NCBI GenBank assembly: GCA_902520595.1
Contig: CABYOM010000005.1
Location: forward strand, 1 to 51,378
Length of the DNA: 51,378 bases
Direction: 5' to 3'
From: an uncultured Candidatus Poseidoniales archaeon
GTDB taxonomy: Archaea > Thermoplasmatota > Poseidoniia > Poseidoniales > Poseidoniaceae
The translations under genes and the position numbers were made by a program. Positions within the stretch are counted from its first letter, which is position 1; each line of letters opens with the position of its first letter. The notes under the pieces are model-generated. The model saw only the letters and a program-made list of their open reading frames with translations. It searched no databases and was not told the origin of the DNA. Below, piece after piece: positions 38,082 through 45,008 of this stretch.

Positions 38082-38304
38082 GGTGTTTCTATCGCAGGCC
38101 GGAAGATAACCTTTGGCCAGCCCCAAAGGCTCAGACCCTCCTCACCACGAAAGAATTAACACAACAAGAATTGAAAATTGTCCGACTAGGTAAACAAATG
38201 AATCATAGGCGCTGCTTGCTGTCTCTTTGCTTAAACATCTCAGAAAGGATTGTGTTTAACAAATCAATATGAGGTGAGATATTTACAGTAACATGGTATT
38301 TAGT

Positions 38305-38376
38305 GCTCGTACCGGGATTTGAACCCGGGTCGAAGGAATGAGAGTCCTTCATGATGGGCCACTACACTATACGAGC
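38305..38376 (-). tRNA. tRNA-Glu (anticodon CUC)
   Basis: 72-nt cloverleaf on the minus strand: acceptor stem GCTCGTA/TACGAGC (7 bp), anticodon stem AAGGA/TCCTT with loop CTCTCAT, giving anticodon CTC, and T arm CCGGG-TTCAAAT-CCCGG. No intron and no encoded CCA. AT-rich sequence with a TAAATA-like element lies upstream (on the plus strand around 38405). Confidence 0.93.
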
Positions 38377-38553
38377 GTGGATGGTTTGGCCACCGATACC
38401 CCGTATTTAGCCGTCACCCATTCAATTATTCAACGAAAGTATGGTGAACTAATTCTTCAAATATCCATTCACTTTAACCATTGAGTGAAAGTGAAAAAAA
38501 GAATGCTGCGGCTGTGAATGAGATTAAGTTTCAGTTGAGGGGTGTTTCGTCGC

Positions 38554-38562
38554 TTGATATAC
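38554..38562 (+). promoter_or_regulatory. TATA-like element ahead of the structured leader
   Basis: TTGATATAC lies in otherwise gene-free sequence (38377-38690) downstream of tRNA-Glu. A start of transcription about 25-30 bp on (near 38587) would produce a leader of roughly 250 nt in front of the winged-helix gene, including the GC-rich folded block. Weak evidence. Confidence 0.25.
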
Positions 38563-38692
38563 TGGTGCCCATGAGTTTGGTTCATGCACAACAATGCAAA
38601 TACCCTTGAAAAATTATCATTCAGCGACCTACCATGCTCGACTGTAAAAGAACAACAACCCACATGGGCAGAGAAATCCTCTACACTCTATG

Positions 38693-38835
38693 CTCACCCC
38701 AGCGGCAAGCTCCCATCTCGGTTTGCCGCTGCCGGGTGGCAACCCTGGCACCGACCTGGTGGCTCCGGGACTGCTCTGGTCAGCACAACAGTTGCAAGCC
38801 TTACCCGTCGCAGCCAAATCGCAATCCGAGGTGAG
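38693..38835 (+). ncRNA. GC-rich structured RNA, candidate 5' leader regulator or stand-alone ncRNA
   Basis: This 143-nt block is about 60% GC in a mid-40s% background and folds well on paper. An outer stem, CTCACC (38693-38698) with GGTGAG (38830-38835), closes a junction. Hairpin P2 is CAGCGGCAA/TTGCCGCTG (38700-38708/38723-38731). Compound stem P3 is CGGGT-GGC-AAC (38733-38743) with GTT...GCC..ACCCG (38791-38807), enclosing two more hairpins: CCTGG+CACC/GGTG+CCGGG at 38744-38769 and TGCT/AGCA at 38772-38785. The GGTGAG arm is the natural ribosome-binding site of the ATG at 38841, so the outer stem would hide it. I recognise no known riboswitch, SRP, RNase P or 5S RNA signature. Strand and function are unproven. 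Confidence 0.42.
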
Positions 38836-38840
38836 GCTTG

Positions 38841-39080
38841 ATGGGAAGAACACAACGTCTACGCCAAGAAATCTCAACCTATCTCGCATCGGTTGGAGAA
38901 GCGAACACAACCGATATCTTAGAGCATGTAAACAAGCGCTTCCGATGGGGTGCAACCATGAACCAACTCGGAAATGTCCTCGCACGTGATCGCCGATTTA
39001 TCAAAGTCGGTTTCGATGAAGGAACCGACATTGGTGGTTTCAGAATGCGGGTTTGTGTCTGGTCAATTGCTTCTGCTTAA
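38841..39080 (+). CDS. Small winged-helix-like protein
   Basis: 79 residues starting MGRTQRLRQEISTYLASVG. The pattern helix-helix (ILEHVNKRFRWGATMNQLGNVLARD) followed by a basic beta-wing (RRFIKVGFDEG) resembles a compact winged-helix DNA-binding domain, as in several short archaeal proteins. The ATG has a good GGTGAG ribosome-binding site 5 bp upstream, which lies inside the outer stem of the structured leader. The prenyltransferase gene follows 37 bp later on the same strand. Role unknown; a regulator or replication/repair accessory protein is possible. Confidence 0.65.
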   Translation: MGRTQRLRQEISTYLASVGEANTTDILEHVNKRFRWGATMNQLGNVLARDRRFIKVGFDEGTDIGGFRMRVCVWSIASA

Positions 39081-41017: not shown

Positions 41018-41836
41018 TCAATTCTTTTCATGCTCAATGTCACTTGCAAATCCGTCACGTGCATCACTCATACCACCAAACAATGCTTGGGCGAAGGTGA
41101 GAATGTCTGCAAGCCCTTCTTCGAGTTCGGATGAAAGTGGAGTCAAACCTGGTGCTTGGGAGAACTCTTGCATCAAACGAAGTTGGTTGATTGCGAACTC
41201 GGTTCTCTGTCCACCCGCTTCTTCATACAGTGCCATTTCTAAAATTTCTAATCGCTCTGACCATTCAAGGATTTTTTCTAATTCCTCAGGTTCAAGTAGA
41301 TCAGATTTTGACAAGAAGTTTTTCGTCGGCAAGCCAAGTCGAAATTCAACAATGCTTGAAAGAAGCATTTGCGAAACGAATCCTGAAGGGGAGCGAGAGA
41401 GCATAGGGTCAAACAAATAGATGATTGCCGATTGTTCACGGCCAATGACCTCAATCAAGTGATTACTTGCTTCACGGAATGCGAACAGTTCTACTTGCCC
41501 GGGTGTGTCAACAACCATGACTTCACCGGAAAGCGCATGCAATTGCCCTGCAACATCACCAGCTTGAGCAGCCAAAAGATCAGCAGCAAGGATTTGGGCA
41601 CCGTTCGGTCCAAGGTCATATTCAGACATAACTTCAGTGAGCGAAATCAAATCACGAACATCGAATTCTGCGTCATAATGCACTCGTTCTGCCCCTGGAT
41701 CAAGGTTGACTGCAATGGCATCAGTTTCCAAAAATCGAGACCAACGCTGAAAAGATGTCACCAAAGAAGACTTTCCTGCACCTGCAGTTCCAACAACAAA
41801 GAGCACTGGCGGGGTGCCACTATCCATACCGACCAT
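41018..41836 (-). CDS. GPN-loop GTPase
   Basis: 272-residue GTPase of the GPN family (archaeal/eukaryotic; eukaryotic homologues help assemble and import RNA polymerase II). P-loop VVGTAGAGKSSLV (residues about 12-24), NLDPGAE (switch-type Asp), the family-defining Gly-Pro-Asn in DLGPNGA (about 74), switch II VVDTPGQVELF (about 109) and the base-recognition region LSKSDLL. The archaeal partner is unknown, but a role in RNA polymerase biogenesis is a common inference. ATG 41827 is an alternative. It is divergent from the Pro/Met-repeat protein gene. Confidence 0.92.
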   Translation of the reverse strand: MVGMDSGTPPVLFVVGTAGAGKSSLVTSFQRWSRFLETDAIAVNLDPGAERVHYDAEFDVRDLISLTEVMSEYDLGPNGAQILAADLLAAQAGDVAGQLHALSGEVMVVDTPGQVELFAFREASNHLIEVIGREQSAIIYLFDPMLSRSPSGFVSQMLLSSIVEFRLGLPTKNFLSKSDLLEPEELEKILEWSERLEILEMALYEEAGGQRTEFAINQLRLMQEFSQAPGLTPLSSELEEGLADILTFAQALFGGMSDARDGFASDIEHEKN

Positions 41837-41943
41837 GCCCCTTCCTCCGTACCACCCTACATCAACATGGTGGCAAAACCAACAAAAGACTCTGCAAACG
41901 GTCGCTTTTTCGAAAACTAAGGGGGAGAACGGTTATGTGCTCA

Positions 41944-41952
41944 TTGTATATG
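41944..41952 (+). promoter_or_regulatory. Probable TATA box for the Pro/Met-repeat protein gene
   Basis: TTGTATATG lies 42-50 bp ahead of ATG 41994. Transcription would start near 41972-41976, followed by a GAGG ribosome-binding site (in ATAGAGGAATTG). This supports 41994 as the true start and not the longer open frame from 41814. Confidence 0.4.
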
Positions 41953-41993
41953 GGAGTGTTGCCGCTTGTGCGGTTAACATAGAGGAATTGAAA

Positions 41994-44900
41994 ATGAGCG
42001 AAGAAAAACCACCTATGCCACCCGGAATGCCTGCAATGCCGCCTATGCCTCCTGCTCCTCCTGGAATGGATGCACCCGGAGCACCTCCTGCTCCTCCAGG
42101 CATGCCACCTATGCCTCCAATGCCTGCTATGGACGCACCTCCTGCTCCACCGGGTATGCCACCTATGCCGCCTATGCCTGAAATGGATGCACCACCTGCT
42201 CCTCCTGGCATGCCTGCTATGCCACCAATGCCAGAGATGGACGCTCCTCCAGCTCCACCTGGTATGCCCGCAATGCCTCCTATGCCTGCTATGCCGGCAA
42301 TGGACGCTCCACCTGCGCCTCCTGGTATGCCACCTATGCCACCAATGCCAGAAATGGACGCACCACCTGCACCTCCAATGCCAGAAATGGACGCACCACC
42401 TGCTCCACCTGCTCCACCTGGTATGCCACCAATGCCGCCAATGCCTGCTATGGAAGCAGAAGCGCCTGATGCATCTGCATTGATGGCTGATAGCGCCGCT
42501 CTACTCGGAGCACCTGCACCTCCTGCAATGGATGCAGAAGCGCCTGCTGAAGAGCCATCTATGCTCGACACTGCAGCACTACTTGGCACACCTGCACCTC
42601 CCGCACCGCCAGAAGAAGTAGCTGAAATTCCTACACTTCCTGCGTCCTTGACCCCTGATCCGGTTCTCGGAACGCCAGACAACCTCATGGGTGAACAAGC
42701 AGGAGCCGTTATTCGAAGCAGTGCAGAAGTTGACGAAGTTCTTGGTGACAAACTTGAAGGTACGCTCCATGAAGTCGAAAAGGCCACACTTAGCGCTGAT
42801 GGAGAAGTCATTAAGCAGACCGTTAAAGGAACGCTCAAAGTCAACAATCCTTCTGCAGAAGACCGTATTTACGACATCGATGTTATGCTTGACCATGCTG
42901 ATGCAACTGACATTGGCGGAGATAATGTCTCTGTTGATGAACTTGAAGCAGGCGCAAATTACAGTATGAAATACAAGGTAAGTGGCAAGAGAATGCTCGT
43001 CTTACGCGAACGATTGGATACAAATCCTGCACGTTCTCAAGAACATTCACTTTCAGTTGCCTCCAGCGAAGAAGGTGGACCAATTGCTCTTGAAATTGAA
43101 GTTGAAAATACTGCAAATGTAGCGATCAACGATGTCCATGTCAGTCGACCACTCCCCGATGAGTTCAGTTTCGACAATACTGGAGCAGCTACCCTTGAAG
43201 ACAATACCCTGTCATGGGATGTCGGAACACTTGCTGCCGGTGAAAAGCAGATTTTGAGCATTGAAGGAACAATCGTGGTATCTGGAACGAAATCAATCAA
43301 TGCTGGAGTTGCTTCTGCCACATACACTTCCAACTCGACACTTTCGAACCTGAACTTTAGAGAACTCGATGCATTCTGCCGAGGATTCTCCTACATGCGT
43401 GTTCGGGAAGACGAGCGACCTGACAACTGGATTTGCCGAACGACATTCGAGAACCGTTCTTCATTCGCAGTTGACTTGGTCAAACTTCAAGTCCGTATGA
43501 AAGGAAGTGATGACCTTCTCTTTGATATCAGCGATGTTCGCCAAGATGTCAAGCCTCATGGAAAGTGGGAAAGTGAAGAACGCACCGTTATGGCGCAATC
43601 GAAGCCTGACTTTGCTACTGAACTTGCTTATACAATTCTCCCTCGTGCAAGCCGAAGCACAGAAGGTTCAATCAGTTTAGAAGCAAAGACTCTGCAAGTA
43701 GTGGAAGCAAACCTTGAGAAGGTCTACTCGACCACTGGACTGCGTTCATATCGCTCACAAAAAGTGACTGCCACATTGACGCTCACCAATAATGGTTCGG
43801 CCGATATCAATTTGATGCGAATTACTGACGACATACCTGGATTGTTCGATGCACCTGATGCATCTACAATGACCATCAACGTCAATGGAAAGGAAATCGA
43901 TTCCGAGCAAATCAAGTGTGAAATCAACAGCGGAATTACTCTTGAAAAGACCAACCGCTCACCCGATGGAGACGGCCACACAATGACGGTAACCGTTGGT
44001 GCTCGTGGACCTGTTGGCCTGAAGCCGGGTAAGAGCATGACCATCGAATACGATTTGGTTGCTCCAGATCCTTCACCTGACAACTCAAACATTACTGCAC
44101 CTGCCCGAACTGAATTCAGCGCAGAGCGTTATGGACCAGTATGCACTGTTGACACAACTGAAGCTCCTGCAATCAGTGTGATCCACAACCGACGTGATTT
44201 CTCGTTCGGAAAGACTACACAGAAGATTGGTGGTAAAGGTCGGCATGAAGTGTTGATTCTCTTCTCCAACGATGGAGACACTGCATTGAAGGACGTCATC
44301 CTCACTGACATTATTCCTGAGAAGTTCGAAATCAAAGATTGGTTAATTCGAGGTAACTCCGACAAGAGAGATGACTGCGAAATGAATACTGAGGCTGGAG
44401 AAGGTGGTACTCACATTACTTGGACAATTCCAATTGTCGAAAAGGGTGAGCGACTCGAGGTCTCGTTCGAGATTCATGGACCAGGTGTCATCGATGGTGA
44501 AGCAGGAAACCGATTCCACGGCGTTCACTTTGGTGATGAAGTCGAAACTGAAGACATCGCATCCCCAGTCGAAGAGGCTGTTGAAGAAGAGGCTGTTGAA
44601 GAAGAGGCTGCTGAGGAAGAAGAAGTTGAAACAAATGTTTCGTGGAGAGAAGATGTTCTACTCCGTGTGATGGCTGCGGCCGAAATTGATGTAGAACTTC
44701 GTGATGAATTTGTCAAGCATGCCGTAAATTTCGATTCAGACAACAATGGATACCTCAAGAAGGCAGAACTACAAGCTGCTGCTGATGCATGGAATGCAGA
44801 TGCAGGAGAAGAAGAAGAAGTCGTTGCTGAGGAAACCGTTGAAGAAGCGGTCGAAGAGGCGGTGGAAGAATCAACTCCTGACGAAGTAAGCGAAGAAGCC

Positions 44901-45008
44901 GATGCTGAAGATGCTGAAGTTGAGGGTGGAGAAAAAGCGTGCCCAACCTGTAATGCAATGTGTGCTGCTGATGCAACTTCATGTTCAGTGTGTTTCTATA
45001 CATTCTGA
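41994..45008 (+). CDS. Large Pro/Met-repeat protein with Ig-like domains, EF-hand and C-terminal zinc ribbon
   Basis: 1004 residues, unrecognised as a whole. Residues 1-155 are an iterated PPAPPGMPPMPPMPEMDA-type repeat. Residues 155-220 hold two ALLGAPAPPA/ALLGTPAPPA elements. From about 235 to 845 there are several beta-sandwich domains resembling DUF11/CARDB-type modules, with segments such as IEVENTANVAINDVHVSRPLPD and LTLTNNGSADINLMRITDDIPG. An acidic EEAVEEE stretch follows, then a canonical EF-hand loop DSDNNGYLKKAE (about 913-924), more acidic repeats, and a zinc ribbon CPTC ... CSVC at the end. There is no signal peptide or membrane helix, although such beta domains are usually extracellular. 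ATG 41994 has GAGG and a TATA element upstream. Confidence 0.8.
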   Translation: MSEEKPPMPPGMPAMPPMPPAPPGMDAPGAPPAPPGMPPMPPMPAMDAPPAPPGMPPMPPMPEMDAPPAPPGMPAMPPMPEMDAPPAPPGMPAMPPMPAMPAMDAPPAPPGMPPMPPMPEMDAPPAPPMPEMDAPPAPPAPPGMPPMPPMPAMEAEAPDASALMADSAALLGAPAPPAMDAEAPAEEPSMLDTAALLGTPAPPAPPEEVAEIPTLPASLTPDPVLGTPDNLMGEQAGAVIRSSAEVDEVLGDKLEGTLHEVEKATLSADGEVIKQTVKGTLKVNNPSAEDRIYDIDVMLDHADATDIGGDNVSVDELEAGANYSMKYKVSGKRMLVLRERLDTNPARSQEHSLSVASSEEGGPIALEIEVENTANVAINDVHVSRPLPDEFSFDNTGAATLEDNTLSWDVGTLAAGEKQILSIEGTIVVSGTKSINAGVASATYTSNSTLSNLNFRELDAFCRGFSYMRVREDERPDNWICRTTFENRSSFAVDLVKLQVRMKGSDDLLFDISDVRQDVKPHGKWESEERTVMAQSKPDFATELAYTILPRASRSTEGSISLEAKTLQVVEANLEKVYSTTGLRSYRSQKVTATLTLTNNGSADINLMRITDDIPGLFDAPDASTMTINVNGKEIDSEQIKCEINSGITLEKTNRSPDGDGHTMTVTVGARGPVGLKPGKSMTIEYDLVAPDPSPDNSNITAPARTEFSAERYGPVCTVDTTEAPAISVIHNRRDFSFGKTTQKIGGKGRHEVLILFSNDGDTALKDVILTDIIPEKFEIKDWLIRGNSDKRDDCEMNTEAGEGGTHITWTIPIVEKGERLEVSFEIHGPGVIDGEAGNRFHGVHFGDEVETEDIASPVEEAVEEEAVEEEAAEEEEVETNVSWREDVLLRVMAAAEIDVELRDEFVKHAVNFDSDNNGYLKKAELQAAADAWNADAGEEEEVVAEETVEEAVEEAVEESTPDEVSEEADAEDAEVEGGEKACPTCNAMCAADATSCSVCFYTF
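42005..42460 (+). repeat. In-gene tandem repeats encoding Pro/Met-rich units
   Basis: About 450 bp of imperfect tandem units around 45-54 bp long, built from CCTGCTCCTCCTGG-, ATGCCACCTATGCC- and GAAATGGACGCACC-like blocks. They encode repeats of Pro-Pro-Ala-Pro-Pro-Gly-Met and Pro-Met-Pro-Glu-Met-Asp. Near-identical neighbours imply recent expansion and likely length variation between strains. The antisense frame here is long and open only because of the repeat composition. Confidence 0.75.

Follow-up and report, generated by a model that had tools for sequence, protein, structure and literature searches.

A conserved hairpin inside a small archaeal gene that overlaps a DUF3860 winged-helix gene: a putative dual-coded cis-acting RNA element

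The window analyzed here (the whole stretch of DNA, 51,378 nt) is contig C5 of a 1.42 Mb draft genome. A block within it, read in an earlier note as a non-coding leader with the layout of a riboswitch, is on comparison of sequences part of a small ocean-archaeal gene, previously unannotated, that stands in tandem with a winged-helix gene. Comparison with related genomes establishes a conserved small protein, an overlapping winged-helix gene and, inside the first coding sequence, a hairpin that is under selection and whose loop is invariant. We consider it probable (roughly 70%) that this hairpin is a dual-coded, cis-acting element of the overlapping small-protein/DUF3860 unit, serving as a putative binding site that sets the output of the gene pair.

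A small gene in tandem with a DUF3860 gene

The block in question (38693-38843) is internal to an open frame that runs from an ATG at 38584 to a TGA at 38841. The features of the gene pair are as follows:

38554..38562, + strand: TATA-like box TTGATATAC of the small-gene promoter, at a distance from the ATG that is conserved in aligned relatives
38584..38841, + strand: small protein gene of 85 codons, open in all relatives found
38828..38834, + strand: Shine-Dalgarno-like site GAGGTGA of the winged-helix gene, within the small gene
38839-38841, + strand: stop codon TGA of the small gene
38839..38843, + strand: TGATG stop/start overlap, in which the A of TGA is the A of ATG 38841
38841..39080, + strand: DUF3860 winged-helix-like gene (Pfam PF12976, E 1.2e-16)

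The GC richness reported for the block was confirmed (0.60-0.63 over 38625-38849, compared with approximately 0.37-0.51 around it), while its non-coding character was not: the block codes, and the amino-acid frame is conserved through it in all relatives. The frame is free of stops in the 27 genus relatives found with the protein. A profile of the small protein matches 44 of the 63 genus genomes and, in a sample of 194 genomes from the order Candidatus Poseidoniales (Marine Group II), 89 genomes representing 11 of 21 genera; throughout this order the protein is conserved upstream of DUF3860. In the sister family of the order, a divergent small protein (e.g. ...LVHASGDQENGNWRPLVQP...) occupies the same genomic place. 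Outside the hairpin, differences in the small gene fall mostly at third positions, and the pN/pS values of 0.42-0.46 (codons 1-36) and 0.19-0.30 (codons 55-86) indicate purifying selection on the small protein. A "leader riboswitch" call made from a single sequence therefore needs a coding test first.

The downstream protein is a clear DUF3860 member (61 bits, with a Pfam cut-off of 27) related to the solved structure 2od5 (PDB E 3.8e-12), whereas the upstream small protein matches no family. It has no match in Pfam, NCBIfam or PDB (no solved relative), a Pfam search with 22 of its members returned only two weak matches at chance level, no relative was found in the viral collection searched, and its AlphaFold model is uninformative, with a mean pLDDT of 54. 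The small protein adds an unannotated family that is common to Marine Group II archaea. In 19 of the 63 genus genomes (including G002, G004, G063, G074 and G081) no small-protein match was found, reflecting either an assembly gap or a real loss; the completeness of some of these genomes is 80-88%. Weak matches elsewhere in the genus were rejected as paralogs, those inspected (L091-L093) being antisense frames of a large subtilase-like gene.

In archaeal promoters, the spacing from TATA box to start predicts where transcription begins. The centre of the TATA-like box lies ~26 nt from the small-gene ATG, a distance that is fixed across aligned relatives, and we infer from this geometry that the small-gene mRNA is leaderless or nearly leaderless. 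At 90 of 91 loci, the stop of the small gene overlaps or adjoins the next start. The GGTGAG ribosome-binding site described earlier does end 5 nt before ATG 38841, and GGTGAG or GGTGAA occurs at this position in all hairpin-bearing sequences checked.

Three further observations concern the neighbourhood. Most genus genomes carry a second DUF3860-like gene (e.g. G003:C9:16804-17019), approximately 39% identical. Contigs of relatives often end ~270-700 nt upstream of the small gene (L203, L207, L208, L210 and L213), near the position of the tRNA-Glu of the window (38303-38376, - strand), and this upstream region may be variable or repeated, breaking assemblies. Downstream, a long repeat of the MPPAPPGMPAMPP type lies close to the start of a large ORF (41814-45008) whose end contains cysteine.

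Evidence for base pairing within the coding sequence

The hairpin occupies codons 37-51 of the small gene and has the following parts:

38695..38699, + strand: 5' half of the outer extension, CACCC, pairing with 38734-38738
38700..38711, + strand: 5' arm of the core hairpin (CAGCGGCAAGCU), included in the covariation counts
38712..38719, + strand: hairpin loop CCCAUCUC
38720..38731, + strand: 3' arm of the core hairpin (GGUUUGCCGCUG), included in the covariation counts
38734..38738, + strand: 3' half of the outer extension (GGGUG), set off from the core by a 2-nt bulge

The perfect 9-bp hairpin of the earlier note is thus real and longer than described, with a core of 12 bp (38700-38711/38720-38731) and 5 bp beyond the bulge. 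In the outer extension (n=30), two pairs are invariant, one is broken in 6/30 sequences and one in 2/30, and the evidence is weaker than for the core. All 30 distinct genus sequences share UCCCAUC (38711-38717) without change, and a second genus, g19, keeps it. The loop 9-mer TCCCATCCC is not enriched in the genome.

Pairing holds in 97.3% of stem cells across the 30 distinct sequences, five stem pairs have changed on both sides, and doubly changed cells number 30, compared with 8.8 in shuffles; if the partner is slid along, pairing falls to 29-55%. A tree-aware null, in which 3' substitutions were randomly relocated on a tree of the rest of the locus (hairpin codons excluded), gave a mean core pairing of 85.7% and a maximum of 98.0%, so that 0 of 3000 reach the 98.4% observed over 41 tips. 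Pair 12/37 shows a repeated C-G/U-A exchange by way of Ser AGC-AGT with Ala-Thr GCT-ACT. Two-sided changes at pairs 16/33, 17/32 and 19/30 involve amino-acid replacements, namely Lys-Glu, Lys-Arg together with Phe-Ser, and Leu-Ile together with a change in the final base of codon 46; each of the three amounts to no more than roughly a single event on the tree. The pair-keeping replacements (Lys-Arg/Phe-Ser, Leu-Ile/codon 46 and Ser codon/Ala-Thr) clearly illustrate an archaeal protein bending to an RNA constraint.

Synonymous sites tell a similar story. In codons 37-54, pS is 0.14-0.20, compared with 0.57-0.60 in the rest of the small gene and 0.68-0.73 in DUF3860, and synonymous change in the hairpin codons is reduced three- to fourfold. 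A gene overlapping in another frame was rejected as the cause of this constraint because the alternative frames, with stops counted over the stretch from before the hairpin into DUF3860, are interrupted in nearly all relatives. Recoding that preserves the protein gave a mean of -13.6 kcal/mol compared with the observed -30.8 kcal/mol, a loss of ~17 (mean z -5.2), and the recoding z is at or below -3.1 in 41 of 41 sequences. When eight genes of the window were scanned, z reached -5.5 only at the hairpin; the minimum over 530 scanning windows of the other seven was -4.0.

These results bear on whether the hairpin could be a by-product of protein conservation and codon usage. No part of the small protein is more strongly conserved than the motif of the hairpin region (H-P-S-G-x-[LI]-P-S...A-A-x-G-W-Q-P), and some covarying pairs involve amino-acid changes that might reflect protein co-evolution. 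This explanation is hardly credible, as recoding with the protein held fixed destroys the stem, synonymous sites are constrained at the hairpin alone, and a clade with a related protein motif lacks the stem (z near 0). Covariation in coding alignments may arise within codons (PMC11234323), but this is a poor fit since the hairpin columns sit in different codons and nest antiparallel as a helix. Judged by these comparisons, the hairpin shows covariation beyond phylogeny and structure beyond coding need, as is asked of a conserved cis-acting structured RNA, and in its codons the same letters are held by both protein and RNA shape.

The strand of the structure had been left unsettled. For the hairpin, G-U pairs kept in the + sense (11 U-G at columns 15/34 and 13 G-U at 18/31) identify the + strand, because they would be A-C on the other. 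For the whole block, comparison with shuffles gave z -2.9 (0/200) on the + strand and an unconvincing z -1.7 (12/200) on the - strand. Inverted repeats are typical of operators. An operator-like repeat bound as DNA by a transcription factor, for instance the winged-helix protein of the neighbouring DUF3860 gene, is nonetheless very unlikely for three reasons. First, the many kept G-U pairs would be mismatches in a DNA repeat. Second, the arms vary and the loop is fixed, which is the reverse of operator half-sites. Third, the hairpin lies >100 bp inside a transcribed gene.

The earlier note had placed the hairpin in a non-coding three-way junction whose outer stem, CTCACC (38693-38698)/GGTGAG (38830-38835), would hide the DUF3860 ribosome-binding site in the manner of a translational riboswitch or autoregulated leader. 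The complementarity is present in the window, the z of -2.9 is in keeping with a structured + strand, and in the window's own fold the ribosome site forms an 11-bp pairing with 38795-38805. Evolutionary support for the outer stem is lacking, as its six pairs are all intact in only 17 of 48 sequences and its one freely varying position, the third base of an Ala codon, is T, C or A opposite an unchanged base; the stem stays constant at positions dictated by the protein and the Shine-Dalgarno site, and its changes at positions free to vary go uncompensated. The 11-bp alternative was likewise rejected, as it decays in close relatives. The ribosome site is not more hidden than in recoded versions (unpaired probability 0.32 vs 0.36), and the 3' part of the block, for which a compound stem with two hairpins was proposed, does not exceed synonymous recodings in structure (mean z -0.67). 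At gathering or permissive thresholds, Rfam 15 matches in the window were tRNAs only, with nothing credible in 38400-39000. With a coding frame conserved throughout the block, a junction of this kind is highly improbable. A pairing of the loop with the DUF3860 start (UCCCAUC/GAUGGGA) fits the window and was also discarded, since the start context is GAUGAG in other clades while the loop is unchanged. What stands of the proposed structure is a + strand RNA element with compensatory changes in related genomes, confined to one hairpin; conservation of an amino-acid frame in place of pairing had been named as grounds for abandoning it, and the frame is indeed conserved, with the pairing of this one hairpin conserved alongside.

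Putative role and relation to known systems

Covariation and synonymous constraint together indicate a selected hairpin with a C-rich invariant loop, which is probably a binding site tuning translation or decay. Transcription would start at or next to the small-gene ATG, as the TATA spacing suggests. Ribosomes would finish the small protein, stop at TGATG beside the internal Shine-Dalgarno site and re-initiate on DUF3860, a step suggested by the overlap and by the coupling tested in Haloferax volcanii (PMC6728339). The hairpin would present its loop on the mRNA, where a putative protein or RNA partner could bind in cis, and the bound hairpin might slow or block ribosomes on the small gene, or affect re-initiation or mRNA decay, thereby setting the output of the coupled pair.

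A simpler possibility is a site at which ribosomes stall or pause with no dedicated binder, with consequences for how the small protein folds, for mRNA decay or for re-initiation on DUF3860. A GC-rich stem of 12-17 bp within coding sequence could plausibly obstruct ribosomes, but a pure obstacle needs no fixed loop, and the invariance of UCCCAUC throughout the genus set and in g19 makes this unlikely. The loop is instead predicted to be read by a protein or RNA. Assuming that the hairpin is such a binding site, autoregulation by an operon product is a natural guess. It is conceivable, though we hold it only tentatively, that the hairpin represents a new class of fully dual-coded archaeal cis-regulatory RNA in which a dedicated putative regulator, possibly one of the operon's own two proteins, acts through the C-rich loop to gate small-protein/winged-helix translation. 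If true, this gating would concern a gene pair of abundant surface-ocean archaea.

Both overlapping gene pairs and structured mRNAs of archaea have precedents. In Methanococcus, ribosomal protein L1 is autoregulated through an mRNA structure in the coding region of its operon's first gene; the genes and the structure differ here, and the resemblance to the hairpin is one of layout. A k-turn consists of a 3-nt bulge followed by tandem G-A pairs, while the present stem has a 2-nt bulge between standard pairs and no G-A pairs. Archaeal L7Ae autoregulates through a k-turn stem-loop in the 5' leader of its own mRNA (PMC6298567), which is similar in being an archaeal mRNA structure with putative control of translation by protein binding; the hairpin described here lacks a k-turn and lies inside a coding sequence. 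Coupling of TGATG/ATGA overlaps by termination-reinitiation was shown experimentally in H. volcanii (Huber et al. 2019, PMC6728339), and the present pair resembles those in its 1-nt TGATG overlap, internal Shine-Dalgarno site and co-directed archaeal genes. It differs from that mechanism, as described there, in the conserved covarying hairpin of the upstream gene, and coupling of the present pair is a prediction. In Mycobacterium tuberculosis, Mbox, a known riboswitch class, controls a small upstream ORF (PMC12810186); a small conserved upstream ORF and an RNA element are found in both cases, with the RNA here inside the ORF. In the open-licence literature searched, we found no hairpin that covaries, lies entirely within a small archaeal coding sequence and has its pairs kept by amino-acid changes. 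Lying hidden in a coding sequence, the present structured RNA would escape leader-based searches.

Distribution of the hairpin among relatives

A covariance model of the hairpin gave one strong match per genome, always at the small-gene locus, in 41 genus genomes among 319 of the order; the element therefore precedes the same gene in every copy, as the earlier note had asked. All other matches in the 319 genomes had E above 0.1, and no hairpin regulon was found among them. As the hairpin is single-copy, a shared function cannot be read from other genes.

In L072, L132 and L134, whose protein carries the variant HSTGKLPE, the small protein and the overlap are kept and the hairpin is absent, indicating that it is dispensable in this clade. 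In the nucleotide tree, rooted by midpoint only, the hairpin-less clade neighbours the AGA-codon clade, and this position favours loss of the hairpin. In the two g19 genomes covered (L158 and L159), a hairpin of at least 14 pairs occupies the corresponding position and retains the CTCCCATCCC stretch (z about -4). Its 3' arm has been rebuilt and is quite different, and the protein differs too (RDDCWQ). The genus covariance model scores these two genomes weakly (12 bits), so the g19 hairpin is recognized by folding and loop rather than by the model. The other genera and the sister family are without the hairpin. One sister-family genome (L165) has a lone strong fold in its small gene, at codons 28-47 of the scanned frame (z -4.5), absent in its relatives, that is probably due to chance.
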